A DNA stretch of 64,000 nucleotides from NCBI GenBank assembly GCA_947184155.2, contig CAMXCT020001688.1:67039-131038 (forward strand), written 5' to 3'. This stretch comes from Cladocopium goreaui (taxonomy: Eukaryota > Sar > Dinophyceae > Suessiales > Symbiodiniaceae). Numbering within the stretch: position 1 is the stretch's first letter; each line of letters starts with the position of its first letter. Position numbers and translations under genes: made by a program. The notes below the pieces were generated by a model. It worked only from the letters and a program-made list of their open reading frames with translations, searched no databases and had not been told where the DNA came from. Shown here one piece after another: positions 1,260 to 25,019 of the stretch.

Positions 1260-1604
1260 AGCACACAAGCGCAGCTCGTCGGCGTCGTCGTCGTCGTCGT
1301 CGGAGTCGTCGTCGTCAAGGCGGTTGGCGCGGGCACGAGGAACGAGTGAGAGCGACGAGTGGTAGTGGGCAACATGATCGGTAGTAGCCGGGTAAGGGTG
1401 GATAGTGGGTTGGCGCGAGCACGAGGAACGAGTGAGAGCGACGAGGGCCGACGATGACGACGACGACTCCTCCTCCACCTCCTCCACCTCCTCCTCCTCC
1501 GCCTTCGCCTCCTCCTCCTCCCCTGACTCTGCGCCACTGATGCTACTCACTGTCTGCCACCCACTATCCACCCTTACCCGGCTACTACTTAGATGAACTG
1601 GTGG
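1260..1604. repeat. Left outer inverted arm with internal hairpin and trinucleotide runs
   Basis: Bases 1318-1383 match the reverse complement of 53047-53120 nearly perfectly, apart from a short insertion on the right. Bases 1586-1604 match the reverse complement of 53028-53046 over 19 bp without mismatch. Between them the left copy has about 200 extra bases framed by a 30-bp hairpin (1381-1410 against 1560-1589). The hairpin loop carries a second partial copy of the arm and a (TCC)n run. A (GTC)n run sits at the outer edge. The piece GCCACTGATGCTACTCACT (about 1532-1550) is in direct, not inverted, orientation relative to its copy near 53180, so the left end has been locally rearranged. Confidence 0.75.
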
Positions 1605-1900
1605 TTAGATATCTAGTTAAGCTAATTGCACTAATTAATTCATGTTTCATAACTATATGCTAACTATATGTTAACTGCATGCTAAGTCAGTAGTAATTGC
1701 TCTAAACAGGACAATTGAATTATGATATTTACTATTTTTTTATAATTGTTAGCTAAACATCTTAATGCTGTCAAGAAAAACATACATGTTTACCAAGGTT
1801 AGCTAACCAGTTAAAGCTAATTCAGCTAAATGGTTAGCTGAGTTATAATTTTACAAAATTAAGGTTTTTTTTAAAAAAAAACAATGAAATTTATATTTCA
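1605..1900. other. AT-rich spacer with TTAGCTAA-like words
   Basis: No gene is visible. The stretch is rich in GTTAGCTAA/CTAGTTAAGCTAA words, as is the shorter corresponding segment 52910-52990 on the right side in opposite orientation. It ends in a poly-T/poly-A run directly before the first AGCC-n-GGCT motif, so the left border of the 12-kb plus-strand block falls at about 1880-1904. Confidence 0.6.
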
Positions 1901-2062
1901 CAGTAGCCTTTTTTGGCTGACACACAAGCCAGCAGGCTCATGTCCAAGTTTGACAGTTGAGTGTCCTGTGTGCTGCCAAAGGCAAAATCATTTTGCCAAT
2001 GGCACATGATTCAAGAAAGATTGGCCACCTTGGCAAAATGGGATTTAGGGTTTGGGTTCAGC

Positions 2063-2787
2063 ATGGACAGCAGGAAAGCTCTTTGGCTCCCAGCTCAAGA
2101 AACAATGGAAGGGCCAGGTGTTGGGGATGAAGTGCCAGCTGGCAAGGTAGAGATTTGCCACCAGGTGTCCCTGAAGTTTGACAATGGCAAGCCTGTGCTC
2201 ATCCCTTCTTCCTTGCTAGTGAAGGACCTCTGTGCATGTGATGTGCAAAACAAGGTAGTTGGCAGGAAAAGGAAATGGTTTGTATATGTTTTCAAGATGA
2301 ACCAGTGCCATATGTATAATTTCCCTGATTCCAGGATGATGATGGCAACACCTATGTGAAGCTCGCCTCCACCAATCAGCAAATCAATTTTTTGATTTGT
2401 GCAAAGACTTGCAAAAATGCTTCTTTGAGTAATGGTGCCAAGATGACTGAGCTGAAGAACCTCAGAAATGAAGCTTTGAAGGGTACTGGCTTGGCAACCT
2501 CTTGGGATGACGAAGGTGATGAAGCACTAGAACCTGTCTCCAAAAAAATCAGGAAGGTGGAAACAACAGTGACCATAGATGTGCATGGAGTTGCAGTGAA
2601 GCTGCTGTGTCCTGCTAAAAGAGCATTGGTTGCAGACCTTCAAGTCCTTTTGGATGAGGACATGCTGAGTGCAGTCTTCAAATACATTCAGCCTGATTGC
2701 TTGGAAAAGCCAGCCTCCAGACAATACAAAAAATCTGGTAACTTCAGCAAGGTCAAAGAGGGGCAGGAGAAGAAGGATGACAGCTGA
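2063..2787 (+). CDS. Two-exon gene, unknown function, 214 residues
   Basis: Exon 1 runs 2063-2254 from an ATG (MDSRKALWLPAQ...) and ends CAAG|GTAGTT. Exon 2 runs 2335-2787 and begins after CCAG|GATGATG. The 80-bp intron is phase 0 and the joined frame gives 214 codons. The middle contains KKIRK, a possible nuclear-localisation signal, and the C-terminus is basic (KVKEGQEKKDDS). I do not recognise a family. Almost no CpG occurs in either exon. It is the first gene of the plus-strand block and is flanked on both sides by AGCC-n-GGCT motifs (1905; 2883 onward). By position it is likely an accessory protein of the element, but no activity can be assigned. Confidence 0.6.
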
Positions 2788-2882
2788 GTTGGCCAAGAGT
2801 GGCGAAAATGTTTTAGCTGCACAGACCTCAGCTGCCAGCAAGACAAGCCATGTTGGCTGAACCAAGGTGATCCAATATTAGT

Positions 2883-3140
2883 AGCCTTTTTTTGGCTTAT
2901 ATACTTTTCAGCCTTTGTGGCTCAATTGCAGCCTTTGTGTGGCTTCCCTGTTGGGCAGTTAAGTTGTTAGCCTGTTATGGCTCAAAACCAATGCCAGCAC
3001 ACAAGCCATTGTGGCTCGCTTTAACTCTTGTTTCTTTACTAGCTGGTTCTGGCTCATACTTACAAAACTTGCATGTCCACCAGCTCTTTGTGGCTCATGT
3101 CATTTGCTGTAGCAACTTTAGCCCACTGTGGCTCAACATG
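2883..3140 (+). repeat. Array of spliced-leader-like AGCC-n-GGCTCA motifs (cluster 1)
   Basis: About eight copies lie between the first two genes, for example AGCCTTTTTTTGGCTTA, AGCCTTTGTGGCTCAA, AGCCTGTTATGGCTCAA, AGCCATTGTGGCTC and AGCCCACTGTGGCTCAA. The outer AGCC/GGCT words are complementary, so each copy could form a small stem. Spacing is irregular, about 25-60 bp. The dinoflagellate spliced leader contains AGCCATTTTGGCTCAAG. None of these copies is an exact match. Confidence 0.85.
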
Positions 3141-3341
3141 TCTTGAAGTGTAAGCATGTTTCTTTTGGATTGTTTGGCTATAGTCAGCCACAATGTGGGT
3201 GAAAGCATGGTCTTGCAAGCCTCTTCTATAGCAACACACATACAAGATTCGACTTCCAGAAAGAAATGCAAAACATAAAATGAATCGACAACACTCCAGG
3301 GACTTGACTTTCCTGATTGTTGGTCAGACTGGCTGGAAGCC

Positions 3342-5382
3342 ATGGATAGCCATGTGAAGGCTTTGGTGGCCAAAGTGCTGGATGACCCTGCTCTTGGCAT
3401 CAATGCCAAGCTGGACAATGCCTTGGCCATCTTGAAGAAGCATGGCTTGGCCACAGACATGGTATTGAAGCCATCAAGTCTGTTGTGTCACCCTCAGAAT
3501 AGAGGTGGCTCCATGGTCAACCCTTTCGATGTGCACAGGAAAGGTTAAAATGTTGTTAGCACTGGCCTGAAGCATTCCCTTTTGGCTGCCAGCTCTGTGT
3601 GCATAGAGATTGCAAGAGACCCTGCAGCCAGAAAGGAGCAAATGGCAAAGAACCAGTCTTGCTGTGACAAAGCTAGTGGCCTACTTGGTGGTGTGCAAGG
3701 GCAAGAAGCTTATTTGACATTGGGCTGCAGCCATTGGGTGATGTATTGCAGGGCCCTGGAGCAAGGAGCTATGAGTCCCAATGGTGACAAGCTGCATGTG
3801 CCATCTGAATTGAAAGGCCTACTCAATGAAGGGTGGCAATGGGTGGTTCTCAAGCCAGAAGTGGAAGAAGCTTTCCCTACCTTCCCATCCTGGGCTGCAG
3901 CCTCTTTGAACTCTTCGAATGCAAATGTCAAGGTGACTTCAGAACTTGAAGCAATGCTGGAAATTGCAAGTCTCTTGAAGCAGGGCAGAAGCAGTGCTGA
4001 AGCAGTGGAAGCAGTGAAGGCTGGTCTGCCAGCTTGTGCACCCTATTTGGTGGACATTGCTCATTTTGTGAAGCTATACGCAGGAGGAAATCAGTTTCCT
4101 TTGTTGCAGCTGATGAAAGATTTCTGCACCAAGTATGGGCCATCCATCCTCATTGGAAGTGAGATGATGCACCATTTGAGTCACTTCGACTTTAAGATGG
4201 ACAACAACCAGGGCAGCCCTCTTGTGTTGCATGCTCACCACCAAAAAATGTGAGAATGGCTTAAGCAGGCTGGTGTACAAGTCTGACTTGGACAAGCTCA
4301 AAGGTGCCTTGAAGTCAAAAACCAAGAGTATGGAAGATATTCTCAAAAATGCCTGGGAGCATTGCCAGCAGAGGAACAGTGATGGTGCCAGGATGGCTTG
4401 GGGCAAGCTGGGCTGCAGGGTGGTTTTGCACATTTTGGGAAAGGAAAAGCATTCAAGAGACCCTCCCTTCGAGTCTGTGGAAGACATAGTGAAAATGTTT
4501 GGAGACGAAGTGCAAGGCTCTTCTGCCCAGTCTGCTGCAGCTTCAAGCAATGCTGAAACTGGACAAGGACCAGAAGTCAAAGATTTGCTGTCAGCCTCCA
4601 GCAGTGAGTTGGCTCTTCTGGACAATCCTCACCTCAAGCTTGGTGGCTTCTATCAGTGCAAGGACTATGATGACAAGGTCTTTGTGTTGGTGCGTCTTGC
4701 TGAAGACCACATGGTTTTTACCCATACTCCTGTGCTGGATGTGCCTGAGGAAGTTCAAGTCGAGTTCAGCAAGTTAAAAACGTGGAAGGCAACAAAGAGG
4801 CAGCCTCCCAAGCTTTGCCCTTCTGATGCTGCAAGCTTGAAGATTGCACACACCACTGATGTGTTCAAAGCTGAGCTGAAGAAGACACAGCTGCAGCTCA
4901 TTCTCCTGGAAGCTTTCCAAAGCAGCATTTCAGAGGTGCATGGCTCTTTGCTCTTTGCTTCCATGCCTGGACCTGGCTTGTTCTGCTCCCAGAAGCTGAA
5001 GAAAGGTCAGTTGGTGCTCGACCCCATGGGCACAGTGCAATCTCTGAAAGGCAAAGACTCTTCCAAGGTCAAGAATGTCATCTTGGAGTTCCAGCAGGAC
5101 AAGTTTGCTGTCCAAAGTTTCAAAAGTTTGACAGAGTTTACTTTGGAGGCTGAAGGAATGTTGGTGCCTTATCACTATGTCCAAAGCATTCCACCGGAGG
5201 AAGAGCCCAACATGGAAGTGAAGATGATGACAGTGAAAGGTGTGAAACTTCCTGTGTTGACCAACAAAGTGGCTGTCCCTCAGAACACCTTGTTGACCAG
5301 AGCTTTGGCAGTGGAGAATGAAAGTGAAGGTGAGCCTGGTGATGAGGGAGCTCCAAAAAAGAAAAGGAAGCATAAGGAGTAG
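3342..5382 (+). pseudogene. Broken gene with SET-like C-terminal segment and nuclear-localisation tail
   Basis: The coding frame opens at ATG 3342 and is interrupted by an in-frame TAA at 3546. It reopens in the same frame to 4253, then continues one base out of phase (from about 4222) to 5382. The shift falls at an A6 run near 4245, where one surplus A would explain it. Ignoring the lesions it would be about 680 residues. Around 4960-5040 the phrase GPGLFCSQKLKKGQLVLDP resembles the start of a SET methyltransferase domain (G-x-GLF...KKGxLVL), and the later LPVLTNKVAVPQNTLL fits the end of such domains. This is inference from pattern memory. The C-terminus PKKKRKHKE is a classical nuclear-localisation signal. 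CpG is scarce. A short intron removing the TAA, or sequencing error, are alternatives to pseudogenisation. Confidence 0.55.
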
Positions 5383-5464
5383 GTTCGCTCAGAGCCATGG
5401 TCTTCCAAGAGAGGTGAAAAAAGACCTGGGGGCTAGCCCATCTTTCAATTCAAGTTTGGTTCCT

Positions 5465-5830
5465 ATGTTGTCAGCCAGTTTTGGCTCATTTTTGATCAGC
5501 CCCTTTTGGCTAACATGTTGTTAGCCAATTTTGGCTTAGGTTATGTCAGCCATTATTGGCTCCTAGTCTGTTATCTGAAGCTAGTTTTGGCTCATTTTTG
5601 GTCAGCCCCTTTTGGCTAACATGTTGTGAGTCAATTTTGGCTTACTCAATGTCAGCCATTATTGGCTCATAGTTAGTTAGCCCATGTTGGCTCAAGTTTC
5701 TGAAGCCCATTTTGGCTCATAGTCTGTTAGCCTATGTTGGCTCAAGTTTCTGAAGCCAGTTTTGGGCCAAGGTATTTAAACAACCATTGTTGGCTTATTT
5801 TCTTTTCCACAAGCCATTTTTGGCTTTTCT
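5465..5830 (+). repeat. Dense array of AGCC-n-GGCTCA motifs (cluster 2)
   Basis: This is the densest cluster, with roughly fifteen copies in 370 bp. Examples are AGCCAGTTTTGGCTCA (5469), AGCCCCTTTTGGCTAA, AGCCAATTTTGGCTTA, AGCCATTATTGGCTCC, AGCCCATTTTGGCTCA (about 5704) and AGCCATTTTTGGCTTT (about 5812). Two copies continue as GGCTCAAG, as the real spliced leader does. A larger unit of about 110 bp (several motifs plus linkers) is visibly duplicated between 5465 and 5690. The array separates the SET-like gene from the next two-exon gene. Confidence 0.88.
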
Positions 5831-5910
5831 TTGCATTCTGCCAGCACAGAAGTCATTGAGAGTCATGACCTGTGATGTTTTATGTCTTAAGCAAAGAAGG
5901 AAGCGCACCC

Positions 5911-6550
5911 ATGAAAAGAGCTCCCACAATAGATGTGGATCTCTATGAAGAGCAGCAGAAAGAAGAGCTGGAAGCACTGATTCGCCAGGCCTTGCTTATG
6001 GTAAGAGATTTACCAGCCATTTTTGGCTCATTGGTTTTTGCTCACTGTGGTTTTTATGCGTGGAAGTTTCCTGTATCTCTGGCACAGCCTTGTGTGTCTA
6101 GTTGCATAGAAAAAAATTGGTGAGATGTGTTTGTATTTGTAGGTGTTTCCACTGCCACCTGCCCTGTAGAACCAAGAAGCCTTGGAAGCCATACAACGAA
6201 GAGCTGGAAAGAGGATCAAGGAAGAACCTGCGGATTCTCCTGATGAATGGATCAGAGAGGAGGAAGCCTGGTACCACCAGCAAGACCAACAGCAGGAGGA
6301 GGGACGACAAGAGCTTCAGGATGGTGAGTCCTACTTTCAGGATCTGCTGCGCTCTGAGGGTGCTGCAGGAGGCCTTGCTACAAATGCCTTGAGTATACCT
6401 GCGGATGAGGCCGAGCACTTACTACGACAACGCGAAGCGGATGAGGAAGAGGCAGAGCAAGAGGTGGCTCACTATGTCAGCTACATGACCAGGGTGACCG
6501 AGGTGCAACCTGATGGACAGAAGCCTTCTGGGACAGAGGCCCCAGAGTGA
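5911..6550 (+). CDS. Two-exon gene, acidic glutamine/glutamate-rich protein, 156 residues
   Basis: Exon 1 (5911-6000) begins MKRAPTIDVDLYEE and ends at a strong donor, ATG|GTAAGAG. Exon 2 (6170-6550) follows CCCTGTAG|AACC in the same phase and ends GTEAPE-stop. An earlier AG at 6143 would lead quickly to a stop. The product is almost entirely charged (runs of E, Q, R, D) and probably a coiled coil or disordered. No catalytic motif is visible. The intron itself carries an AGCCATTTTTGGCTCA motif at about 6014. Unlike the CpG-starved neighbours, this gene contains many CpG dinucleotides, so it may have a different age or origin from the genes at either end of the block. Confidence 0.6.
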
Positions 6551-6657
6551 CCAGTGTTGCGTATTGTTTCTGATTCAAGCTGCTTTTGGCTCATACTAAT
6601 TTGTTCCAAGATACTTCATGTGATTTAGTAATGGCATGTTACTAAGGAGAGTAAAGT

Positions 6658-7326
6658 ATGTTTCAGAAAAAGTATGTGCAGGATTGTGGGCCCAATGAAC
6701 CTATGTCGCACGTCCAGCAGAGTTCTGAGATGCCAGTGCAGGAAGAGCAGGAGACAAAGCACACTTCCTGGAGTGACACTCCAGAAATGTCTCAGCGAGA
6801 TCCTCCACACCCGACTGCAGCAGATCCTTTGCCTACCAGTGTGACCTGGGAAGAGGAGTGGCAAGAGCAGGGATTCCAACAAGAACAGCCATGCAGGACA
6901 CACAGGGACCAGACCTGGGACGAGAGAGCAGCCCCTGAGAACAATGATCAGACATGGGATGAGCAGGCTTGGTCGCAAGAAGCGCCAGAGTGGGAGAGGA
7001 GCGCTGCCATGTACCAGGATGATGATGCACATCAGGTCGCTCAAGATGAATCTCAGTGGCAGTATGGTCGTGGAGAGACTATGCGCGCTGGGCCTCCTGG
7101 TGGATATCCTCGAGAAGTTCAGTGGGATGGAAATCCAAAGACTGGATGGCAGAATCGATGCGTGCATCTCATGGCGCTGTGGGCCCAGGGAGAGTGGCAG
7201 GAGTTAGAGCGTGTGATGACTCTGTTCAGCAATCACCACCTGGTCAAAGGGCAGGTTCTCAACTTAAGGTCCCAATTGAACAGCTGGGGGCCCAGAGGAG
7301 CCAAGAGGATTGGCTACATGTGGTGA
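6658..7326 (+). CDS. Single-exon Gln/Glu/Trp-rich protein, 222 residues
   Basis: The frame opens at ATG 6658 (MFQKKYVQDCGPNE) and runs to a stop at 7326. The first two-thirds are low in complexity, with spaced tryptophans in an acidic, glutamine-rich background (for example DQTWDEQAWSQEAPEWE). The last 70 residues look folded (GWQNRCVHLMALWAQGEWQ... LVKGQVLNLRSQLNSWGP) and may form helices. I do not recognise it. It contains normal CpG, like the preceding gene 108 bp upstream, which makes the two a compositional pair. One AGCTGCTTTTGGCTCAT motif (about 6576) lies between them. Confidence 0.55.
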   Translation: MFQKKYVQDCGPNEPMSHVQQSSEMPVQEEQETKHTSWSDTPEMSQRDPPHPTAADPLPTSVTWEEEWQEQGFQQEQPCRTHRDQTWDERAAPENNDQTWDEQAWSQEAPEWERSAAMYQDDDAHQVAQDESQWQYGRGETMRAGPPGGYPREVQWDGNPKTGWQNRCVHLMALWAQGEWQELERVMTLFSNHHLVKGQVLNLRSQLNSWGPRGAKRIGYMW

Positions 7327-7504
7327 GTGAAGCCCAGACGAAATGATATCATACATCACATTATAGACATAGGTCAAGATCATAATTAGGAATTCTAGAC
7401 ATGAAAGCAACAAGCCTGTGGTGCCATACTATGGTGGGCTTCAGAAATCACAGCCTCTGCAGCAGACCGCTTTGCTGGCTAAAAAGGATATGTAAAAAAA
7501 TGCA

Positions 7505-7668
7505 TATCCATCAGCCTGGTTTGGCTCATGTTGCCATTAGCCTTGATTGGCTTGTGTGTGTGACATAGTTTTTTGTTTGTTCTCAGCCTCTTTTGGCTCA
7601 TACATACACTATTGTAGACAAGAATCTAGGAAACACAGGTAGCATTGTGAGCTAATTTTGGCTTTGTT
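7505..7668 (+). repeat. AGCC-n-GGCTCA motifs (cluster 3)
   Basis: Four copies follow the Gln-rich gene: AGCCTGGTTTGGCTCAT, AGCCTTGATTGGCTTG, AGCCTCTTTTGGCTCAT and AGCTAATTTTGGCTTT. They lie between that gene and the palindromic AT-rich satellite. Confidence 0.8.
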
Positions 7669-7696
7669 GACCTGTTTGGACATGAAGAGCAATATT

Positions 7697-7932
7697 TTTT
7701 TAATTCAGAAATCTGAATTGAGATTCGAACTCTTTAAATTTCAATTCAGATTTCTGAATTGAAATTTAAACTCTTTAAATTTCAATTCAGAAATCTGAAT
7801 TGAAATTCACATTCTTTAAATTTCAATTCAGATTTCTGAATTGAAATTTAAACTCTTTAAATTTCAATTCAGATTTCTGAATTGAAATTCAAACTCTTTA
7901 AATTTCAATTCAGATTTCTGAATTGAAATTTT
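7697..7932. repeat. Tandem array of palindromic 41-bp units
   Basis: Five to six units each contain AATTCAGATTTCTGAATT (or the AGAAATCT variant), a near-perfect palindrome, joined by TTAAACTCTTTAAA-like linkers that are also near-palindromic. Every unit could extrude as a cruciform. The array ends 88 bp before the next start codon. Confidence 0.85.
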
Positions 7933-8019
7933 CTGCTGTCTCGATCGCAATTCAAACAAATATTTATTGCTTGAAGCATTTTTAGCTTCAAACCTTCGAC
8001 TTGTTTTGTGTTCACCAAT

Positions 8020-8547
8020 ATGCCTGGTCTCGGAACCATTGCTCGTCAGAGGAGTCAACCAGAGCTTGACTACACTGGCAAGCTCAGGGTATGGTGGCAT
8101 AGAGATGGAAATCGCACCTACTGGTATGTGAGAACATACACTTCAGGCCTGGAATATAGCAGTGGAAGTGATATATACATTCCTATATATATATATGTGT
8201 GTCACACAAAGACAACATGTTTTGTTGCGTTTGTAACAGCAAGTTTTGTCTTGAGACTGCCTTAACCAAAAAAAAAGTACTGGCCAGTTTTGGCTCTTGG
8301 TTCCTTACCTTCAATTCTGCCTGGGTAATCCATTAGACTGTTTGCTTCAAACCCTTACCTTCCATCCTTGCAGAGATATTTCCTGACAGGCTGGGAAGAA
8401 TGGGTGCCTTTGAAGCAGTTTTTGCAGAGCATCAGTGGCAATGTCTTCATGGATGATCAAGCTCTAGAAGCTGCTGAGAGTCACTTGGGCAGGCAGATCG
8501 AGACAGGAGAGTTTGAGCCCCCTCCAGCCCACTTGCTGCCAGAGTAG
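8020..8547 (+). CDS. Two-exon gene, small aromatic/basic protein, 93 residues
   Basis: Exon 1 (8020-8127) starts MPGLGTIARQRS and ends TAT|GTGAGA. Exon 2 (8374-8547) starts after CTTGCAG|AGATATTTC and stays in phase. The joined middle, YTGKLRVWWHRDGNRTYWY followed by RYFLTGWEEWVPL, is rich in W, Y and R and could be a small beta-barrel nucleic-acid-binding fold. That is only a guess from composition. The intron (8128-8373) contains a (TA)n run and one motif (CCAGTTTTGGCTCTT, about 8285). CpG is present at ordinary frequency. Confidence 0.5.
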
Positions 8548-8634
8548 ACTCAAGAAGCTGCTGAGAGAAAGATAGAAAAAAAGGAATCAGGTGATCTGTG
8601 TGAGTGCAATCAGCTCTTTTCAGCTCATTAGCTG

Positions 8635-8965
8635 GTAAAGCCATGTTTGGCTCATGTTCTAGGCAAAGCCTCTTTTGGCTAATTTGTATCAGCTAAGAAT
8701 ATATTCAAAGCCATGTTTGTCTCATTTTCTAGCCACAGCCTGTTTTGGCTAAAAGTTATCAGCTAAGACTCTATTCAAAGTCTCTAGCCATAGCTGGCTG
8801 ATCCAGCCATGGATGGCTCATTGAAGTTGTGAGGATGGGTTGAGATACATTAGATTGAGCCACTTGAGGCTGCTGTCAGTTTACAACTTGGTAAACCAGC
8901 CTTTTATGGCTCATACTCCTAAAGTTCTGATAATGCCACAAAGGCTCCTCAGTGATGCTGTTGAA
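8635..8965 (+). repeat. AGCC-n-GGCTCA motifs (cluster 4)
   Basis: About eight copies, mostly AGCCATGTTTGGCTCAT, AGCCTCTTTTGGCTAA, AGCCTGTTTTGGCTAA, AGCCATGGATGGCTCAT and AGCCTTTTATGGCTCAT. A unit of about 75 bp (motif, then TTCTAGCC/GGC, then ATCAGCTAAGA) is repeated twice. A short direct repeat, CCTAACAAAGACACGC, follows at about 9012 and 9061, just upstream of the next gene. Confidence 0.82.
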
Positions 8966-9172
8966 AAAAAGATGATGCTGGTGTGGCTAAGCAGCACTGG
9001 CTAGAAGCTTTCCTAACAAAGACACGCCTTACTACAGGACCAAACAAACAACCAGAATGACCTAACAAAGACACGCTTTGACTGCTACACCATATGAGTT
9101 TAACACCTAATACCACAACAAATCAAAACATTGTTGGCTTTACCCTTTTGTCTACCACTGGCCACTACAGCC

Positions 9173-10696
9173 ATGAGCGCTTGGACAGCAGATGATTTGC
9201 TGAAGGAAATCAATGACCTGGAAGACCTCTACTCACTCAGGCCCACTGGACCTACCATCCCCCACCTGGTGACAGGATTGCAAAGCAAAATTGATGGCAT
9301 AGACAGTTTGACACCCAGGCTTTTGGTTCATTTGATCAAGGCCTTGGATGCTGCCAAATTGCCAGAAGACATGAAAAAGGCTTTGCAAGACACTATGGAG
9401 AAGAGGATGGTGCAGATGAATAGTGGCTCCTTGAAACTACAGAATGTGCCTCAAACCTTGCAAAGTTTGTACAACTACTTTAGTGCCAAGGAATGGGTGC
9501 AATTGCAGAAGGCTCCTTTCACAGAATCAGTGCACATTGCTGTTCAAAGGCTCAGGGCTATTGGTGTGAAAAGCGTGAGGGAAGCGACAAAAAAACATGG
9601 GGTTGCACTCTTGGTGCACTTGGCTATGATGAGGGGAGAGCCCAAGCCACCTGGTGGTGAAATTTACAAAATGTCAGCTTACCTCCATGAAGCCTTCACC
9701 AAGAGCAAGCAACCAAGCTTAGTTCCTGGCCTGGCTACCTACCCAGACAAACCTGCTGACATTGGACCAGTGAATTGGATGCATTATATTTTGTTTATTT
9801 TTGAAATGATAAAGAAACACAAGTGTATAGCTGGATTTTGTGCCTACAAAGCTCAGGAGTTCATGGATGCTTGCTACTGGAAGGATGACCAGCCAAGCCA
9901 TGTGGGGCCAATGGTGGCTACTACTGTTAGTGCTTTGCTCAAGGACATTCCTGTCAGGTCCACCCATGCAGAGACCAGAGGTGCTGCAGCACCAGCCATG
10001 AAAAGAAACATGTCTTTCAGCTCCACAGATTCCTTGGCTGGTGTTTGCATGGATTTCATGCAAATGATGATGGCCACAGCAAGAGGAATGGACAGTGCTC
10101 CCTTGAAGATTGACTACAAGAAGAGTTTTTCCACTTCTGGTGAACCTTCAGCAGCAGCCTCTGGCAGGCTGGCTTTGCCAAGTGGATGCAGTCAGGGAGA
10201 GGGGACCACCCAGGCAAATGGAACTTTGGCTACCATTCCAAACCCAGCTTTGCCTTTGACTGACACACCACCTGAAGAAGAGGCACATGTTGCTGATACT
10301 GTGCCACCTGGGCATGAAGAAACCAAGAATGACCACAATGAGAAAAAAGAACTTTCTTTGAAGGATTATGAAGACCAAGCTTTCAAGAAACTTCAAGAGA
10401 AACAAGGGCAAAAGACAAAGGAGCACAAAGACAAGAACAAGAAGCCAGTGTTGAAAAGGCCTGCAGCAGCCAAAGCTAAGGCAGTGGCCAAAACAGTTGC
10501 CAAGAAGAAAGGTGAGAAGTGTGCACAGCAAAAGGTTGAGCCAAAGGACCAAAGGAACCCTGTGTGGGGTTGTTCCAGGTGCAGAGGTGATCCTTTTGGT
10601 TGTGACGCATGTGCCAAAGCTAGCTTTGGTGGAGAAAGGCTCAATGGTCGGGCAGCTTGGAGGAAATGGTGGACAAAACACCATGGTGGCAAGTGA
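9173..10696 (+). CDS. Single-exon element protein with C-terminal cysteine-rich basic domain, 507 residues
   Basis: I place the start at ATG 9173 (MSAWTADDLLKEIND), directly after ACTACAG, a plausible trans-splice acceptor. A longer frame has no ATG before this one. Residues 1-300 look globular and helical. Residues 300-430 are a low-complexity linker, and 430-470 are a Lys/Ala-rich basic region (KNKKPVLKRPAAAKAKAVAK) likely to bind nucleic acid and enter the nucleus. The end has a compact cysteine cluster, WGCSRCRGDPFGCDACAKASFGG, that could bind zinc. I recall this W-G-C-S-x-C-R...GC..C pattern at the C-terminus of many lineage-specific dinoflagellate proteins. Only about five CpG occur in 1.5 kb. 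No frame lesion is seen, so this is one of the better-preserved genes of the block. Confidence 0.65.
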   Translation: MSAWTADDLLKEINDLEDLYSLRPTGPTIPHLVTGLQSKIDGIDSLTPRLLVHLIKALDAAKLPEDMKKALQDTMEKRMVQMNSGSLKLQNVPQTLQSLYNYFSAKEWVQLQKAPFTESVHIAVQRLRAIGVKSVREATKKHGVALLVHLAMMRGEPKPPGGEIYKMSAYLHEAFTKSKQPSLVPGLATYPDKPADIGPVNWMHYILFIFEMIKKHKCIAGFCAYKAQEFMDACYWKDDQPSHVGPMVATTVSALLKDIPVRSTHAETRGAAAPAMKRNMSFSSTDSLAGVCMDFMQMMMATARGMDSAPLKIDYKKSFSTSGEPSAAASGRLALPSGCSQGEGTTQANGTLATIPNPALPLTDTPPEEEAHVADTVPPGHEETKNDHNEKKELSLKDYEDQAFKKLQEKQGQKTKEHKDKNKKPVLKRPAAAKAKAVAKTVAKKKGEKCAQQKVEPKDQRNPVWGCSRCRGDPFGCDACAKASFGGERLNGRAAWRKWWTKHHGGK

Positions 10697-10896
10697 AAAG
10701 ACAAAGCTGAAACTTCTAAGTAAGCTCAGTCTCCCTTTACCAGCTTGGGCAAAGTAGATGTGGGTGGCAAGTGCCTTGTTTGGACAAGCACAACTTGCAG
10801 GGGTGAAGGTCTACTGAACATGAACCTGAACTGCTGGAGCCTTCAAAAAATGGATATTGTCCTGTGTGCATGAAAGAAGAGTCACCAAACATGTAT

Positions 10897-11157
10897 CAGC
10901 CACTGTTGGCTCAAGTTTTTCTTGCTCAACCTTCATGGCTCCTCCACATGGATAATACAGAATATATAATTGCTAATAGTTTGTGTGCTTTTGATCAGCC
11001 TTTTATAGCTGTGAAATTATGTTTGCAAGAATGCATTTGATCAGCCATGGTTGGCTCAAGTTTTGCTTTGGCTCAGCCTCTAATGGCTCATGTTTCTCAA
11101 AAGCAATAAGCCTTGTTGGCTCAAATTTGCTTTGGGTTCAGCCTTTTGTGGCTCATG
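10897..11157 (+). repeat. AGCC-n-GGCTCA motifs (cluster 5)
   Basis: Seven or so copies lie between the cysteine-rich gene and the transposase-like gene. They include AGCCACTGTTGGCTCAAG, AGCCATGGTTGGCTCAAG, AGCCTCTAATGGCTCAT, AGCCTTGTTGGCTCAA and AGCCTTTTGTGGCTCAT. Two of these retain the GGCTCAAG end of the true spliced leader. Confidence 0.82.
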
Positions 11158-11392
11158 TATATGTAATGCAGACAGTCAGTCTCACCATGTGTAGCTGGAA
11201 TTTTGCTTGGGTATGCTTGTCACAAGCTCCTGCTTGATGTGCCCAAGATGGTCCAAGTGTTGGAAAGCCAAAGATGCCAAAGGTGAAGCATTAGAATGAA
11301 TTTGGTTTTAGAAATACATAAGGCAAAGTGTAACAAATAGAAATACTTTTGGAAAAGATTGTTTGGATTTCAAAAAAGCATGGACAGGTATA

Positions 11393-11582
11393 CAATGCAA
11401 CAATTACCAAATTGCACATTGTATGTGCAAGTGAGCCTAAAGGGCTGCTGCTGGCAAAGCCATGGAAAGCAGGCCACAAAAATTTGCCAATGCAACAATT
11501 ACCAATTGCACATTGTATGGGCAAGTGAGCCTAAAGGGCTGCTGCTGGCAAAGCCATGGAAAGCAGGCCACAAAAATTGGCC
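11393..11582 (+). repeat. Perfectly spaced 95-bp direct duplication
   Basis: CAATGCAACAATTACCAA starts at 11393 and again at 11488. The following ~80 bp, including GGGCTGCTGCTGGCAAAGCC, are the same in both with only a few differences. The second copy overlaps the proposed start codon of the transposase-like gene (11556), so the duplication may have altered its 5' end. Confidence 0.85.
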
Positions 11583-13585
11583 AAGTTGACTACACTCAGA
11601 AAGTCGATACCCCACTGCTCTAAGTCTGCTTTGCACAAAATTTTGCATTATGTGAAGGAACAAGGTGTTCCTGACATGATATACCCACACCAAATGGCTG
11701 AAGGATGTCAGGAAGTGATCCAAAATATGTCTGCCTATGGCCCTTTGATTGCCCATCACAAAGTGATGGCCAAGACAGGTGTGGAGAAAACAATTTCTCT
11801 AGTAAACTTGTTGAGTTGGATCCATGGTGCCTTCAAGGCTGGAGGTGGTTTCTATGCATTGTTGAAGCAAACAATGAACAAGTGTGACAGTGCCTTGTCA
11901 ATCTGTATGTATGCTGATGAAATAACACCTGGCAATGTCTTGGCTAACCAGCCAACCAGAAAGCTATGGGCTATCTATGCAACAATCAAAGAGTTTGGAT
12001 GTGCAATACAGAATGAATCTGCATGGATCACTTTGGGGCTGGTTCGATCTTCAATTGTATCATCATTGGATGGCCACTTGAGCCAAGTTTTTGCTGTCTT
12101 GCTGAATAGCATTTTCAACAACCCATGTGCTAATGTGACAGACTTGGGATTGCAGTTGCAAGAGCCTGGTGGTGGCCAACCCTGTCCCAAAAGATTGAAG
12201 CTGCAAGTTGGCTTCTTCATCATGGATGGCCAGGCAGCCAAATTTGCTTGGAGCACAAAGGGAGATGCAGGCAGTCGTTTTTGTCAGCATTGTGCCAATG
12301 TGTTCCAACTTGCTGCAGATGATGTCAATGATGAAGAAAATGGACACATGTCAGAGGTGTCCAAATACACACACTTCAGCCAGCTGCATTTGGTGGAAAG
12401 CCATGAAATTTTCAAAGCTGGGACAGAATGTCTGCTAGGCATGGGGCCACATCCAAGCAAGAGTTTGCAATGTGGTAGCAAGCAGCTGGCTTGTCCTATT
12501 CTCCTTACAGCCTTCTGGCAAAGCAAGACCCCAGACATGTGTTGAGACCTGCTGACCAGAATTGTTGGGACTGGATGCATTGCCTCTTGTCGAATGGGGT
12601 GGTCAATATAGCTGCCTTCAAGTGGCTGGAAGTTCTGGGGGAATCGGAGCTGCTGCATGGCTATGTGCAAAAATTTGTGCTACCAAAGGCATTCAACACA
12701 ATCCAATTGAAAACTATTTTGGACAGCAAGAGGTTGCCCAAGCACAGAGCCCATGGAAAGATCAATGCAACTGCAAGTGAATTGTTGACACTGTGTTCTG
12801 TGCTGGCACATTTTGCCAGAACAGTGTGTGTGCCTGCAAATGTTCACATTCAGGAGACAAACCTGTTTTTGGCCTTGGTTTTGTTTCTGGATTTGTTACA
12901 AGCTTCTTGGCATGGCAAAGTTCGGCCTGCACACTTAAAGCATGCTGCTGAAGATTGCTTGGTCCAATGGAACCAATTGTCTTGGAAAATGATCAAAAAA
13001 CATCATTGGATGTTACATTTCCATGAGATGCTGGAGAAGCATGGTTGCGTCCCACCTTGTTTTTGCATGGAAAGGAAAAACAAAGTGCCAGCCAGAATTG
13101 CAAGTGGCATTCAAAATACCAGAGCCTTTGAAGAAAGTGTGTATTTGGAAGTGGTCACCTTGGAGTTGGAAAGGGTGAAAAGCCCAGATGCATTTGCTTT
13201 GGATGCTGCAATGGAAGGTGTCAAGCCTGCTGGAAAACCATTGAAGAAAGTGGCAGCACACCTTTGGCACAATGTGGACAACCTTCAGACTTGCAAAACA
13301 GCCAGGATTTTGTATGGCACTTGCTCCAAAGGCGATGTGGTTTACATGGAAAGTGCAGTGGGCAACAAATTTGATGCATGTGAGATCATGACTTTTGTGA
13401 GCAACACAGGAACAGAAGTTGCAATTGGGCATATGCTGGCTTTGAAGCATTTGCACAAGACTTTTGCAGTGTGGATTGAAACAGACCAGCTGGAAGCCAT
13501 TGATTTGAAACAGCTCAAAGCAGCTGTGAGTTTCTCCAAGAATGAAGGGGAAGTGACCACATTGACTCCATGGCACTTGAGATGA
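11556..13585 (+). pseudogene. CACTA/Plavaka-like transposase relative with one frameshift
   Basis: Two overlapping frames (11556-12545 and 12491-13585) make one protein of about 675 residues if a single-base shift near 12500 is allowed. Landmarks match, in order, those I associate with CMC-group (CACTA/Plavaka) DDE transposases: YADEITPGN followed by RKLWAIYATIKEFG; FIMDGQAAKF...KGDAGSRFCQHC, like the family's D...KG..G...C..C segment; NCWDWMHCLLSNGVVN; and KKHHWMLHFHEMLEKHG...CMERK, like the family's KxHxxxH...G......ER motif. The acidic residues in the first three blocks are candidate catalytic residues. Family placement is inference from remembered patterns. CpG is nearly absent. The frame break may be decay, error or an unrecognised splice. 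As the last gene before the right border it is the natural candidate for the block's mobility gene. Confidence 0.5.
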
Positions 13586-13623
13586 AGGGCAAAATTGGCT
13601 CCATGAGTTCTAACAGGTTTTGC

Positions 13624-13846
13624 ATTAGCCATGTTTGGCTCATGTGTGTGGTTGGGTGCTCACAGATAACAAATACATCAGCCTCTTTTGGCTCAACTTT
13701 TTGAAAGCTGAAATTACAAATAATCCACACAATGTGTATAGCCATTTTTGGCTCATTATTTCCAAGGAAAAATATCAGCCACTGTTGGCTCAATATGAAT
13801 GCAAAAATTGAAAAAAATCAATTCAATGAAGCCATGAGGCTGATAT
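13624..13846 (+). repeat. AGCC-n-GGCTCA motifs (cluster 6) at the right border of the block
   Basis: Copies are AGCCATGTTTGGCTCAT, AGCCTCTTTTGGCTCAA, AGCCATTTTTGGCTCAT, AGCCACTGTTGGCTCAA and a last shortened AGCCATGAGGCTGAT (about 13831). The (TA)n run begins immediately after it, and I saw no further copies to the right. Confidence 0.85.
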
Positions 13847-13861: not shown

Positions 13862-13886
13862 TTGGGGGGCTCGTGAACTATCTATT
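13862..13886. repeat. Left copy of a 25-bp inverted repeat next to (TA)n
   Basis: The 25 bases beginning TTGGGGGGCTCGTGAAC are the exact reverse complement of 52826-52850. Both copies abut a (TA)n tract on their outer side and have TTCTAAACTA or its complement just inside. This is the arrangement expected of the ends of an inverted-repeat element inserted at TA. Confidence 0.85.
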
Positions 13887-13944
13887 CTAAACTAATATAT
13901 TCTTTATCATTTTCCTTTCATAAGGGTGTTCATAAGGTAGGTTT

Positions 13945-14310
13945 TGTCCACGTTTTTTCTGCTTATTTCCAGCCTTTTGTCCACGTTTTTTCTGCTTATT
14001 TCCAGCCTTTTGTCCACGTTTTTCTGCTTATTTCCAGCCTTTTGTCCACGTTTTTTCTGCTTATTTCCAGCCTTTTGTCCACGTTTTTTCTGCTTATTTC
14101 CAGCCTTTTGTCCACGTTTTTTCTGCTTATTTCCAGCCTTTTGTCCACGTGTTTTCTTCCTTTGTCACGCCTTTTGTCCACGTTTTTCTTGCTTTTTCCA
14201 GCCTTTTGTCCACGTTTTTCTTGATTTTTTCAAGCCTTTTGTATCCATTTTTCTTTTTTTTTCCAGACTTTTGTCACCGTTTGTCCCCTTTTTTCCAGCC
14301 TTTTTGCCCG
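13945..14310 (+). repeat. Minisatellite, 37-bp unit, GTCCACG core
   Basis: Units of the form GTCCACGTTTTTTCTGC followed by TTATTTCCAGCCTTTT repeat about seven times almost perfectly, then drift (TTCTTGCTTTTTCCAGCC) towards 14310. Frames stay open through it on both strands only because of the repeat, so the apparent Phe/Ser/Cys-rich reading frames are not genes. Confidence 0.9.
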
Positions 14311-16292
14311 CATGTTTCTTTTATTTGTGCAATTTTTTGGTCTGCGTATGATGTATTGAGCCCTTTGTTCACAATAGCTGTTACCTTTTTGATTTTTTCC
14401 CCAAATTTCTTTTGTATGTTGTCAAGTTTGTATCCTGACATTGACACGGGCTCAAGGCCCGCAGCGACAAAGACAAGGACTCATGACTTATGACTTATGA
14501 CTGGAGACTCAGACTTCAGATTTCAGACTCGAGGCTCTCAAAACTATATGAAGCACAAGAGAGAAAAATCTGCTTGATCCTGTGTTCAACATTGCTCAAC
14601 CAGCCCGGACATCTTTTCTCGTGACTTGTGCTGCCAAACCATCGGACCATGGATCACACATATTCCGATTCATCTCGCAATGGCCTGATTGATGAAAATC
14701 TCACCCAATTGCGTTTGAAGTCATCCATGGCAAAAAGAACAGGCGCTCACGGCCCGACTGGACTATCCAAAGCGCTCACTCCAAAACACCTGCCAGGCAA
14801 CTCGCAAAAAAAAAACATGAACCCCAACCCAATCCAACAGCATGACTCAACCCGACTACTTATGAAAAAGGCTGCAAAGATGCGCAAAGAGTAGTGGTAC
14901 CTAGCTCAATGATGAATGATGGGCCGGGCTTAGGGTCATCACTGAGGCCAACAATCGGGAGGCAAGACCTGGAAATATAGCTAACACTTTTCACACTCCG
15001 CTGACAGGTTGTCAATCTGCCATCCGAAAATCAGCTCATGTTCTAAGCGCTGGTTCGCCCTGGAAGTACAGTTTGACTTGCCATCCCAGCCAGCACACTG
15101 TCTCACGAGCAGCAATTCGGACGGTCACCCCGCAACTGCAGGGGCAGTGGCATACCGCATGTCACATAGAAACAGCTTGTGTCAACACTTCATTTTTTTT
15201 GTACAAGTTTCAAGTAAAAAAGGACACATGCTTTTGAGTGAAGTACTGGATGCAGCGCAGCTAAGTGTTCACCCATGCGGCCCATACGCCAACTGCCCAA
15301 GGCCAAAACAGCCAAAACAGCTTCCAAAATTTGGATAGCAGCACAGCATCAAAATTCAGGGTTCGGGCTCTGTATATAGCACACAGAGCACGGCTCAAAA
15401 GCTTGCCTATTATGGTGGCTCTCCCACAGCGAAAGTCTCAATCTCATCGCATGAGTCAAGGAACTGTTGGTACTCTTGGGCTATCTGATCTGCATCACTG
15501 AATTTTGTTTGGTTACACTTGCTGTACATGACATTGCGTTCAATGTCACAAACAATTTGAAGAGTTGGAGTCCATGACTGATGATGTCCTCATGAAATAG
15601 CATAAACTGTATCTTAAATAACGACTATATATGAGTTCCTGTGTCATACTGCGTCAGGTGAAATACAAGAAAAACTGTAAAGAACATGTATACATCAGTT
15701 CAAACCAAGTTGACATAAGATAAGATAATAAGAAGTTCAGATTCATGGTTCATAACTTTCATAAGATTGCAACAAGCAAATCAAGCAACGAGGGGAACTA
15801 TGAACTGACCCATCACTATATTAACAAAATCCGTGGCCCATGGTCCAGCAAAATCCGAAAAACAAAGGATGCGAAACATCTCATCAAACCTTTTGTTCCG
15901 ATATCTCGAGGTGAGAGCCACCGGACCAATCGTCCTCACTTTTCGAGTCTAGAGGCCATGGATCACCTCCCCTTGGTGGCGTCAATCACTGCAGCGACCT
16001 TTGTCATGTAGATATCCAAATTTGGCGGCATCTTGACCTCCACAATCACTCGCAAGCAAGACCAGCCGACAAGCCAACAAGCCATTCGTAACATGTACTG
16101 GCAAGACCGGTTAAAAAGCATGCACTGAATCAACGCACGACAAACTCAAAACCTGAACATCAAAATAAAACAAAGAAAAAGCAATCACAAATTATAATTG
16201 CATGACTCAGGGATTAAGAAGATATCGAATCGGAACATGATCGGAACATGGCAACCTAAGCAGAACAAATAAACCAACAGCAACACAAGGCT
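14311..16292. other. Two-kilobase stretch without a supported gene
   Basis: Short open frames exist (for example 14628-14894 and 15009-15338), but none has splice context, domain or coding texture. A run of GACTTATGACT-like words lies at 14480-14530. The right end is presumably the 3' flank of the minus-strand gene that stops at 16293. Confidence 0.5.
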
Positions 16293-16410
16293 TCAGCGTT
16301 TGTTCGACAACGCCTCCTTGGTTGCGCACATGGTTTTTGCTCTCCTTGCTAAGCTCGCGCGAGACTCATCGGTCTTCAAAGGACGAGCCAAAGCCTGAAT
16401 CACTGCCAAC
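16293..16410 (-). CDS. Terminal exon of a multi-exon helical protein
   Basis: After the acceptor GCTCTCAG|G, the minus strand reads LAVIQALARPLKTDESRASLA...ALSNKR and stops at 16293. It is a short basic helical tail. The coding texture and strand match the larger exons upstream (16.9-23.2 kb), so I treat it as the 3' end of that gene. The phase with the preceding exon could not be matched, so an exon boundary may be misplaced. Confidence 0.45.
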
Positions 16411-16854
16411 CTGAGAGCTGCCAAGACTGTGAACGCAGTGATGCACAAACAGAAAGTTAGTGTGTCAAAATCTTGCCCAGTTGATGGGCAATTGGGAGCT
16501 TGAAACAGAAAGTGTTCGGCGCTGGTTCTCTTCAACTTTCACAATGGAAACAAAATAATCAGTCCAAACCATTCACCTGCCTCTGAATCAATGGTAACAT
16601 GCAGCCTGGCATGTTGGAAACCAACGCGTTATAAAAAAAAGAAACGCTGTGTAACATGTAAAATGAATCATAATCAAGGTCGTATCATTTCACAGTCACG
16701 TGCTGACGTATATTTTCTAGCCTAAAATAGCCATAGCATTGATTCAGAACAGATTATGATATTATTGATTCTGATTCATCATGCCTTCCCCAACGGCGCT
16801 CATTGCCTCATTTACGTGAAGACATTACTCCGAACAGAACAAGCTCTCAAGTAC

Positions 16855-17266
16855 ATGCTGCATGGCCTGCATGGCTCAACAATCCCACAGCAAGTTCCAT
16901 TAAGACAAGAAGCATGCAGTTCAAAGTCTTTGCTTGCGATGGCATGATGGTGACGTTTTTGAGATCTTCCAAGGTGTTCTCTGCAAAAACAACACTGGGC
17001 AACTTGAGGAGGTAACTGTGACTCTGCAAGTCTCCGTCGCAAAGCTTCACCATCCCATGGATCTCCTTGCTGGTTCGGGATTGGGCTGGCACCAATTGCG
17101 CCTCTAGTGTGGCACGGTCAACGCTCTGAGAAATTGCAGCCTGAACATTTTGCATTTCCTGGCTACTGCAAAGTTTCTCAAGCTTTGCGTAGTTGCTGGT
17201 CACCCGGGCCACCCAAGCAAGCGCCAACGAAGATACAGCTTCCATCACCTTTTCCCACGCGGCATC
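16855..17266 (-). CDS. Internal exon of the same helical protein
   Basis: The acceptor CGAACAG|GATGCC at 17266 opens DAAWEKVMEAVSSLALAW... and the frame continues through QNVQAAISQSVDRATLEAQL and VVFAENTLEDLKNV. Candidate donors are CAT|GTACTTG near 16855 or GCT|GTGGG near 16889. The texture is amphipathic helix with no recognised domain. Confidence 0.5.
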
Positions 17267-17419
17267 CTGTTCGTGGAACGGTGTCCGGTGGATTTCGGCT
17301 TCGAGTCAAACAGTCAAAAAGTCAATCAATCATTTTGTCGATGAGGTTTTAAGCTTTTGCTACTTTGGTAAAGAAGTACACGCAATTGACGGCCAGTCGG
17401 TCACACAAAACTGAAGCAA

Positions 17420-18228
17420 ACAATGCCATGTAAGTTAAGATCCTGACGGTAGAAATCAAAGTCAAGTCCGTCTAAAAGTCTAAAAGCAAATGACAATAAA
17501 AACATTAACATTGAACATTAAAAATTACATTATATCAAATATAATCTAAGTTATTTGTCTTCAGTCGATGTCTACGCAGTCTGTAAGTCACTGTAAGTCT
17601 GTCTATCAGTGGCAAGTGGTAAGTCTAATGCATGCCAATGCTCTATAAGTCGTCTATGGGTCGTCTATATGTCGTCTGAAAGTCTTATAACTAACTTAAC
17701 CTGTAGTTACACTCAGTTACAAGCTACTTACAGTTTTTCACTAAAAGTTCTATAAGCTATAAATATTATATTATATAATTATAAATTATATATATATTAT
17801 ATTTAAAATTATATGTATATTATAAATATTATGTATAAATCAAATATTGTACAGCTTCAATTTGAATCTATAGTCTATGGTCTATAGCCTATAGTCTATA
17901 GTCTTAGTCTTCTTCTATGTCTAAGTCTGCTAAGTCCAAGTCTACAAAGTCAGTCTATCATAAAATGAAGAACAATGACATAAACAGAAGCAGTTTAATT
18001 TGTATATCATAACACAAAATTTTGAAGTTAGCCAGAATTTAGTTATAAGTTTATCACTGATCACTGTTTCCAATTTGATATAGTCGATAAGTTACCTCAG
18101 TAGCCTGTATGTAACAAGTACTTTGTAAATCACTTTGTAAAGTTCCTAAACGACGAAACCTACCAACATCCCGTAACATCTCGGTTCGGAGTTTAAGTCG
18201 TTCATTAGGTTTTGAGACTTATTTAAGA
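17420..18228. other. Low-complexity intron or intergenic DNA
   Basis: Built mainly of GTCTATAGTCTAT/AAGTCTAAG words and AT runs (17740-17860). It contains no coding frame of note and separates two coding exons of the helical-protein gene, so it is probably an intron. Confidence 0.5.
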
Positions 18229-18313
18229 TTACAAGTTAATTGCATCGCATTCAGGAAGCCTTAAACTTGAGGCGTTAAATGAATGAGAATCACACACATG
18301 CACAGGGGAAAAC

Positions 18314-19039
18314 CCCACACTCCACACAAACCAGTCCTTGAAGAAACGGAATGCCTTCAAAAGATCCTCTCCAGCACTCTGGTCGGGGCCGTCGGGCGTG
18401 ATCTTCTCCATCTCGTTGTGAATCGTGGCCTGAAGCTGAAGCAACTCGACCATGGTATCAGGCAATGATTTGAACTCAGCTGGAACGCTGTCCGCTTGGT
18501 GGTTCAGGGCGATTGGATCGGAAATGCTTTGCAATTTGGTCACCACACGGCCGGTCTGCAGAGCATAGTCCAAGACTTTCGGCAGCAGGACCAAAGACCA
18601 GTACGGCCGTTTGACACCGGCAAGCTGGCTCTCATCATCCACTGACTCCAAGAAGTTGCTCACCTCCACTGACGAGTTTTGCAAGAAGTCTGGAACTTTC
18701 ATGTTGTTGCATTTGGCGCAAAGCCCTTGCAACTTGTCTGAGTCTCCATCCTCGAGAACCAAAGCTTCCTGGCCAGTGAAAGCAACCTTCAACATGGGCT
18801 GCACGCATCCCATCGCAACAATGGGACCCAACAATGCTGCCACCGATCGGTCCAACAGGGCCATAGCCCTACAGCGGATGAGCTCGGTCAAAGTGGATGA
18901 CTTCTCTTCTCCCAAAAGCGGCTTCATCCCATCCACCAGGTCGATCATCTCGCCAAGAAGCATCAAACAATTTGGGTTCTGCTTGCTGTCATCCGTCATG
19001 ATGGGCTTGAAGGTCTGGCTGAGCAAGTCCAGGATTCTC
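18314..19039 (-). CDS. Large internal exon of the helical protein
   Basis: The acceptor CCGCTCAG|G (exon starts 19039) opens RILDLLSQTFKPIMTDD..., and about 242 codons follow to a donor in GTGGG|GTTTTCC (about 18314). The segment is rich in predicted amphipathic helices (EMIDLVDGMKPLLGEEKSS, DTMVELLQLQATIHNEMEK). A CxxC (LCAKCNN) is present but unpaired. I recognise no domain. The exons at 20.5-21.1 and 21.5-22.2 kb share the same composition and size, suggesting a long, possibly repeat-built scaffold protein. Confidence 0.6.
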
Positions 19040-19099
19040 CTGAGCGGGTTCGACGCATGTATTGCCAGAGTCATGAGTCATAGTTGTAAGTTATATATT

Positions 19100-20420: not shown

Positions 20421-20498
20421 CTGTGTTCAAACGAAAGTGAAACCAACGGAAGGGCACCCCCCCCAGCAACTGATTGCTAGATTGCATCCAAAGATCAC

Positions 20499-21140
20499 AA
20501 TGTTCTGGTAGGCCTTCATGTCTGACACGAACAGTTCAGCATCAGGGTTGATCATGGAGTCAAGGTATTCGGTTGGAGGACTCAATGCTTCCCTGGCAAG
20601 CATGATCTCATCCTCAAGCTCTTTCACACGAGCATCCATGTCAAGGATGCCTGAATTTCCCGGGACCTCAAGGGTCTCGGCTTGGGAGTCAACACATAAA
20701 GTGGCTTGCTCACCAGTGGTCAAGTCCTTCAAAGGCTTCATGAAAGCTTCAAGCACTGCATCCATGACCCTACCATTGTCCTTCAAGGCATCGTGGCTGA
20801 CAGCCGAAGCACACTCGTCAAGTTGCGCTTGAATCTTGCTGATCTTGTCCTGGTGCTTGGTCATAAACTGCTGCGAACATTTTGTCTTGATCGAAGTCAA
20901 ATACCCAAACACCGTTTTCCCACGACCAGATCTCATGCCTGGGTCGCTCAGAAGCAAGTTCGCGGTTTCCTCCGCTTTTTGCAAAGTCTGCTCTTCTACG
21001 GCGTCTTTGCATCTAACCTCGAGAGCTGTCCCTGCCTCCTCCAAAATCTTCAGGCCAGTGGGAAAATTCATCATGGCTTTGTGTAGCTTACCGGTCTTCG
21101 CACCGCTCTTGAACCACGCCACAGCCGCCTTCAAATTGTC
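20499..21140 (-). CDS. Large internal exon of the helical protein
   Basis: The acceptor AAAGCAG|GACAAT (21140) opens DNLKAAVAWFKSGAKTGKL and the frame runs about 214 codons to a probable donor ATT|GTGATC near 20499. A run of seven or more C/G follows beyond the donor. Helix-forming segments with coiled-coil character are visible (MDARVKELEDEIMLAREAL; EEQTLQKAEETANLL). No catalytic motif is visible. Confidence 0.6.
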
Positions 21141-22198: not shown

Positions 22199-22259
22199 CT
22201 GCCAAGGGTGCACAAAACGAAAATAAAATAGGTAAGAGAAAGCAAGATCCAACAATCCA

Positions 22260-23221: not shown

Positions 23222-23299
23222 CTGAAGCCGTAACAAGAGATGTGTTCCACAGACTGGGTAAACGAGTTGAAACATAAAATTATTGAACAACAATATTTA

Positions 23300-25017: not shown

Positions 25018-25019
25018 CC

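Follow-up and report, generated by a model that had tools for sequence, protein, structure and literature searches.

Strand-polar, family-specific hairpin arrays in the gene spacers of a multi-gene transposon family of the dinoflagellate Cladocopium goreaui

The stretch of DNA considered here (hereafter the window, 64 kb) comes from the dinoflagellate Cladocopium goreaui (C1688:67039-131038, on contig CAMXCT020001688.1 of a 1.166-Gb genome assembly in 6202 contigs). It carries a 12.4-kb multi-gene transposon whose terminal inverted repeats (TIRs) have the ends CTTAGATG and are flanked by TA. The inside of this element is a block where short palindromes able to form hairpins stand in arrays between about seven genes, all of which are read from their frames on the + strand. 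We tentatively propose, with a probability of about 0.42, that these palindromes work in cis as hairpins of a family of multi-gene TIR transposons, 12-15 kb in size, and that they would act in the RNA of the element to set transcript ends.

The hairpin block and the element that carries it

Exact AGCC-N4-7-GGCT palindromes occur 46 times in the window, 44 of them between positions 1905 and 13830. Shuffling the block 200 times with a first-order Markov model gives a mean of 1.2 and a maximum of 4, and the excess in positions 1900-13850, which a first-pass annotation of this DNA had claimed for 1904-13846, is thus real. The longer form ending in GGCTCA is found 24 times on the + strand and 3 times on the - strand, and all 27 copies lie within the block, i.e. 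about 226 per 100 kb over 11.95 kb. The genome-wide scan that the annotation had proposed did not find an equal density elsewhere, as the whole assembly contains 11,610 copies of this form (about 1 per 100 kb; 2,273 for a reversed-pattern control). The statement that no copies stand beyond the block holds for the GGCTCA form but not for the exact AGCC-N4-7-GGCT palindrome, two copies of which are located outside, at 26851 and 34467. The loop of the 44 block copies is 6 nt long in 32 cases, 5 nt in 6, 7 nt in 4 and 4 nt in 2. Copies had also been reported in two introns: with introns delimited by frame reading, one is an exact hairpin (at 6015) and the second (at 8282) is a single-mismatch copy only. 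An Rfam search of the window gave no match.

Positions 1904 and 13846, previously taken as the borders of the block, are merely those of its first and last hairpins, the borders of the element being at about 1588 and about 53044. The right end lies so far away because the window copy is split, within an (AT)n tract at about 13843, by an inserted segment of about 39 kb. A complete copy on contig C454 starts with CTTAGATGAACTGG, ends with CCAGTTCATCTAAG and has TA on either side; the surroundings of its transposase gene are 97.6% identical to window positions 1586-13854 over 12.3 kb and its tail matches positions 52864-53046 at 100%. A second family (two copies of 13.0 kb, on C1555 and C120) and a third one (14.6 kb, on C475) show the same TIR start and TA as the C454 copy, and the pair CTTAGATG..CATCTAAG with TA on both sides is found in the window, C454, C1555, C120 and C475 elements. 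The TA may be either a target-site duplication or the outermost bases of the TIR. The stretch CTCTGCGCCACTGATGCTACTCACTG is present in identical form on both flanks of the window element (about 1525-1551 and about 53173-53200), which therefore sits in a local repeat.

Besides the TIR, the elements on C454, C1555 and C475 have a second end mark, the motif TTAGCTAA. All of its sites lie near an end, at 156-217 bp on the left and at 88-126 bp on the right, and none is internal; the C475 element shares it despite its different hairpin. Three elements thus carry this motif at their ends alone, so that the hairpins do not qualify as ordinary end sites of a transposase. TTAGCTAA, together with the TIR, appears to be a better candidate for the site of the transposase, and its presence distinguishes the hairpins from the subterminal repeats found in known elements.

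The features of the window element are collected in Table 1. A Pfam search with 13 frames of the element returned no family above the cut-off (best weak match, E 0.08), and RNase III was not among the matches, although the exon borders used were guessed and a split domain could be missed. Gene G, the putative transposase, has at least 120 scored homologous places in its own genome, itself included, a lower bound since 120 of 569 candidates were scored; that on C454 is the nearest (98% identity). Eight aligned relatives share invariant acidic residues, among them D128, D231 and E513. No Pfam family was found above the cut-off for this protein, a search of the PDB with its first half gave nothing better than E 0.9 and a single-sequence structure model was uninformative (predicted local distance difference test score, pLDDT, of 36). 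Its YADE region may resemble CACTA-like transposases. In 39 of the 81 scored places with relatives of gene F (the best 81 of 1786 candidates), a transposase match follows on the same strand at a distance of 1.2-3.5 kb. The 42 other relatives lack such a match, and 38 of these, a large group with no scored transposase nearby, have frames of 203-232 aa that are about 31-33% identical to the gene F product of the window. The tandem array of longer AT-rich palindromes between genes D and E is possibly a promoter or an origin.

Table 1. Features of the window element, from left to right (positions in the window)
Feature	Position	Strand	Basis or remark
Left end: TA and left TIR CTTAGATGAACTGG	1586..1605	+	Alignment to the complete C454 copy and to its inverted right end
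Two left subterminal TTAGCTAA sites	1749-1756 and 1799-1806	.	Sequence reading
Hairpins ahead of the first gene, 2 copies	1905..1940	+	Palindrome scan
Gene A, two open stretches	1961..2787	+	Frame reading; no Pfam family at E 0.1
Hairpin array A/B	2846..3135	+	Palindrome scan
Gene B, frame split in the window, 705-aa frame in C454	3279..5382	+	Frames; no Pfam family
Hairpin array B/C, partly in 25-bp steps	5473..5825	+	RNA folding z -6.0 sense, -7.0 antisense
Gene C, probable intron with the hairpin at 6015	5869..6550	+	Frame reading; no Pfam family
Single hairpin C/D, AGCT..GGCT, one G.U pair	6578..6591	+	Palindrome scan
Gene D, 223-aa frame	6655..7326	+	Frames; no Pfam family
Hairpin array D/E	7513..7663	+	Palindrome scan
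Tandem array of a longer AT-rich palindrome	7698..7931	.	Also in C1555, about 80% identity
Gene E, read as two exons	8021..8547	+	Frame reading; no Pfam family
Hairpin array E/F	8639..8911	+	Palindrome scan
Gene F, 530 aa, lysine-rich tail with CxxC pairs	9104..10696	+	Ahead of the transposase in related elements
Hairpin array F/G	10898..11153	+	Palindrome scan
Gene G, putative DDE-type transposase, frame split in the window, 683-aa frame in C454	11535..13585	+	Homologues, acidic residues
Hairpin array past the last gene	13627..13841	+	Palindrome scan
Nested insert of about 39 kb, own inverted repeats	13862..52850	.	Absent from the C454 copy
Two right subterminal TTAGCTAA sites	52931..52950	.	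C454 tail match; positions carried over
Right TIR and TA	53030..53046	-	Alignment to C454

The nested insert, which extends over 13843-52869 with its (AT)n tract, has inverted ends of 44 bp, AT included (TTGGGGGGCTCGTGAACTATCTAT...), and a minisatellite near its left end. Thirteen of its 19 listed open reading frames (ORFs) of at least 150 aa are on the - strand, and ten ORFs of the insert that were scanned gave no Pfam match at E 0.01. Relatives elsewhere were confirmed neither in viral contigs nor in the prokaryote genome collection, and window positions 9000-13900 matched no phage record. Fifty viral-contig records with two copies of the hairpin pattern were taken for chance; among the 12 densest, the highest value is 3.2 per kb, against 3.7 per kb in the block, in a record of 1.25 kb that contains the searched pattern by selection.

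Polarity, placement and family-specific stems

The hairpins follow the strand of the genes. In the C475 element, the 13-mer AGCACCCAGTGCT is present 22 times in sense and never in antisense, in spacers throughout the element. Polarity is also found on the ATTAGCC side of the C1555 hairpins (34:0) and on the TTTGGCT side of those of the window element (16:0), which adds to the strand bias of its GGCTCA form. The whole genome contains 231 copies of AGCACCCAGTGCT, against 9 of the reversed control. Among the first 100 of these places, 62 are within 20 kb of a transposase match, all 62 on its strand, and 38 are without a scored transposase nearby; on each of the 11 contigs with at least two sites, all of them point the same way.

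The hairpins also avoid genes. Sense ORFs of at least 150 aa cover 54% of the window block, yet they hold only one of its 44 hairpins; the corresponding fractions in three other elements are 3/41, 2/50 and 4/27 (p from 2e-5 to 1e-16 over the four elements, two of which are near copies). The distance from the transposase stop codon to the first hairpin is 41 nt in the window, 41 nt in C454, and 71 and 103 nt otherwise. Some listed frames end well within genes, 415-1925 nt ahead of the next hairpin. In tandem genes of Amphidinium, the 3' untranslated regions (3'UTRs) are 42-143 nt long and the region excised between genes averages 283 nt (PMC2488372). The hairpin arrays would thus fall about where the 3'UTR and excised spacer parts of Amphidinium lie, a coincidence of distances rather than a proof.

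Related elements carry other stems in the same places. Beside the related transposases, AGCC..GGCT is found in many cases, AGCAC-CCA-GTGCT or a close version in C475, C3611 and C4003, AAGC..GCTT in C2879 and GCTT..AAGC in C291. The version AGCACCCAGTGCT (AGCA..TGCT) thus differs from that of the window (AGCC..GGCT) in both arms of the stem. When the most frequent gapped palindrome next to each transposase was sought blindly, 200 shuffles were exceeded in 17 of 32 lineages (p of 0.035 or less). Clusters around homologous genes in other copies, which the first-pass annotation had named as a test, are therefore present, though not significantly so beside the transposase of the 15 other lineages. 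On the contig of one of these 15, C1342, AGCACCCAGTGCT occurs 8 times, always on the strand of the transposase. In an unrooted transposase tree of 14 rows, with stem labels assigned by hand, the AGCA rows except C1342 cluster with moderate support (85/86; 99/97 without C3611), and this cluster adjoins the window and C1555 families; the branches marked on the tree require the label to have changed at least twice. Both arms of the stem have thus changed together at least once, in one direction or the other. The C4003 copies (L086 650-1120, L087 874-1283) contain in addition a second palindrome array, GGGA-N7-TCCC, which is present in both orientations, unlike the spacer hairpins.

Weighing action in RNA against the alternatives

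The following model can be drawn. The hairpins, standing in transcript orientation in the spacers of head-to-tail genes, would punctuate the transcript of the element. They would be read there, as RNA stem-loops of 4-5 bp, by an element-specific or host factor, and would set transcript ends through termination, through cleavage and polyadenylation, or through the separation of a polycistronic RNA for trans-splicing of the leader. Since families keep their own hairpin versions, the factor that recognizes the hairpins is likely to co-evolve with them and to be a product of the element itself. That every lineage would possess its own spacer RNA hairpin code and its own trans-acting reader, so that its polycistronic processing would be kept apart from that of the host and of sibling lineages, goes further and seems unlikely.

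RNA is favoured by the polarity, by loops that vary between 4 and 7 nt in a single element, and by a modest G.U bias. Concerning the latter, the one-mismatch copies of 18 families, read on the sense strand, comprise 22 G.U-compatible, 9 A.C and 23 other sites; the ratio of 22:9 has a p value of 0.029, or 0.046 against base composition. Judged from these sequence patterns, the balance tips slightly towards action as RNA, and setting transcript ends would be the likeliest RNA role, given the placement of the hairpins and their likeness to the hairpin rule of giant viruses (see below).

Several observations weigh against this proposal. The G.U bias is slight, and the pair is broken in another way at 23 of the 54 one-mismatch sites. 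Stems are short; their positions diverge less than those of spacers between the window and C454 copies (2/312 versus 53/2477 differences), but without significance (p 0.08). Folding z-scores are negative in 14 of 14 arrays in sense and in 13 of 14 in antisense and hence do not separate the strands; the lower score is that of the antisense strand in 5 of 6 window arrays and that of the sense strand in 7 of 8 C1555 arrays. The 62 polar AGCACCCAGTGCT places are on six contigs only, with 50 of them on C461, C475 and C1686, and as C461 shares 99.8% identity with C475 over 3.9 kb, these places represent few independent cases. After other ORF stops that are followed by an array, the first hairpin comes 52-361 nt on. 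Arrays also stand ahead of the first gene, where a pure 3'-end signal would be needless, and 15 of the 32 lineages lack a significant array beside the transposase (200 shuffles).

Part of this would be expected if the palindromes were double-stranded DNA sites, either for an element protein (transposase, repressor or activator) acting near every gene or as polar marks for a DNA-tracking machine, their absence from genes being explained by the inability of coding sequence to hold them. Such a role, which is plausible but somewhat doubtful, would fit the dyad symmetry, the spacing of the window half-sites by about one helical turn (10 bp from start to start with a 6-nt loop), the arrays on both sides of genes and the absence of an overall folding preference for either strand, and the family-specific sequence would suit a co-evolving protein. 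It accounts poorly for the strict polarity with transcription, for the 4-7 nt range of loop lengths in a single element and for the modest G.U bias; moreover, a transposase site would be expected at the ends, and the motif confined there is TTAGCTAA, not the hairpin. Tiny selfish palindromes spreading by themselves through the spacers, like the double-hairpin elements and GC clusters of organelle genomes, are a much less probable source of the arrays. The 22 identical copies of the 13-mer in C475 have largely unrelated flanks (best flank column, 16/22), as would be expected of such inserts, but a self-moving insert could land either way, whereas none of the 11 contigs listed with at least two copies is mixed in orientation, and the copies measure merely 12-16 bp.

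An origin from the host spliced leader, as relics or captured copies, is scarcely credible. The hairpins of the window family do have an AGCC..TTTTGGCTCA core, and the leader CCGTAGCCATTTTGGCTCAAG is present in the host genome (330 matches with 2 mismatches or fewer, 0 for the control). However, the leader is absent from the window at up to 3 mismatches, its core AGCCATTTTGGCTCA has 0 occurrences in the block, CCGT is upstream of none of the 44 hairpins, most of which (32) have a 6-nt loop, and copies also stand 3' of genes. Branches of the family use different hairpin versions in the same places, and the hairpins are therefore not leftovers of the leader; as a general account, this origin is ruled out by the AGCA..TGCT families. 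The convergence on, or capture of, the leader considered by the first-pass annotation thus finds no support, nor does its comparison with CACTA-like subterminal repeats, the end-confined motif of three elements being TTAGCTAA. Its option of element-specific sites or hairpins rather than recycled mRNAs is upheld, so that its interpretation as a whole is partly supported. Its further idea, that the motifs may act on the transcripts of the element, agrees with the reading preferred here.

Known systems and significance

The hairpins have points in common with several known systems. CACTA (En/Spm) transposons have TIRs that begin with CACTA or a close variant, generate 3-bp duplications and carry subterminal arrays of a motif bound by a transposon protein. 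The likeness lies in a TIR element with many short repeats, but here the TIR starts with CTTAG, the flanks are TA, the repeats are element-wide, the ends have a motif of their own (TTAGCTAA) and no Pfam family is matched above the cut-off; CACTA-like terminal repeats are ruled out by the first two features and this end motif. Retrogenes of dinoflagellates share with the window family the AGCC..GGCTCA core through their leader relics, from which the hairpins differ in loop length, flanks, placement and family-specific stems; such relics are sought upstream of genes (PMC6050394). In Amoebophrya, introners have inverted repeats of 8-20 nt at both intron ends, i.e. hairpin-forming repeats in a dinoflagellate genome (PMC7789003), while here the repeats form spacer arrays of a coding transposon.

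The closest parallel for the proposed role would be offered by giant viruses. In Mimivirus and Marseilleviridae, mRNAs are cleaved and polyadenylated in palindromes (the hairpin rule), which, as here, are concentrated between ORFs and linked to upstream stop codons (PMC5413956). The viral rule also includes an encoded RNase III as the reader of the hairpin. The present hairpins differ from them in having one fixed, family-specific and strand-polar sequence, arranged in arrays of a nuclear DNA transposon. To our knowledge, the giant-virus palindromes share no one sequence. Among the titles listed, no publication on such arrays was found in the literature on dinoflagellate leaders, transposons, transcript processing or transposon palindromes, in a search that left most subscription papers uncovered.

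One practical consequence is that an AGCC..GGCTCA motif beside a dinoflagellate gene need not mean a leader relic. The element would also be an unusual mobile element, one whose identity tag is placed between its genes instead of at its termini. Dinoflagellates are described as having no canonical polyadenylation signal (PMC2488372). The ways in which their transcripts are ended and separated are poorly understood, and lineage-specific, strand-polar hairpins would provide a natural set of matched signals with which transcript ending and separation could be tested.

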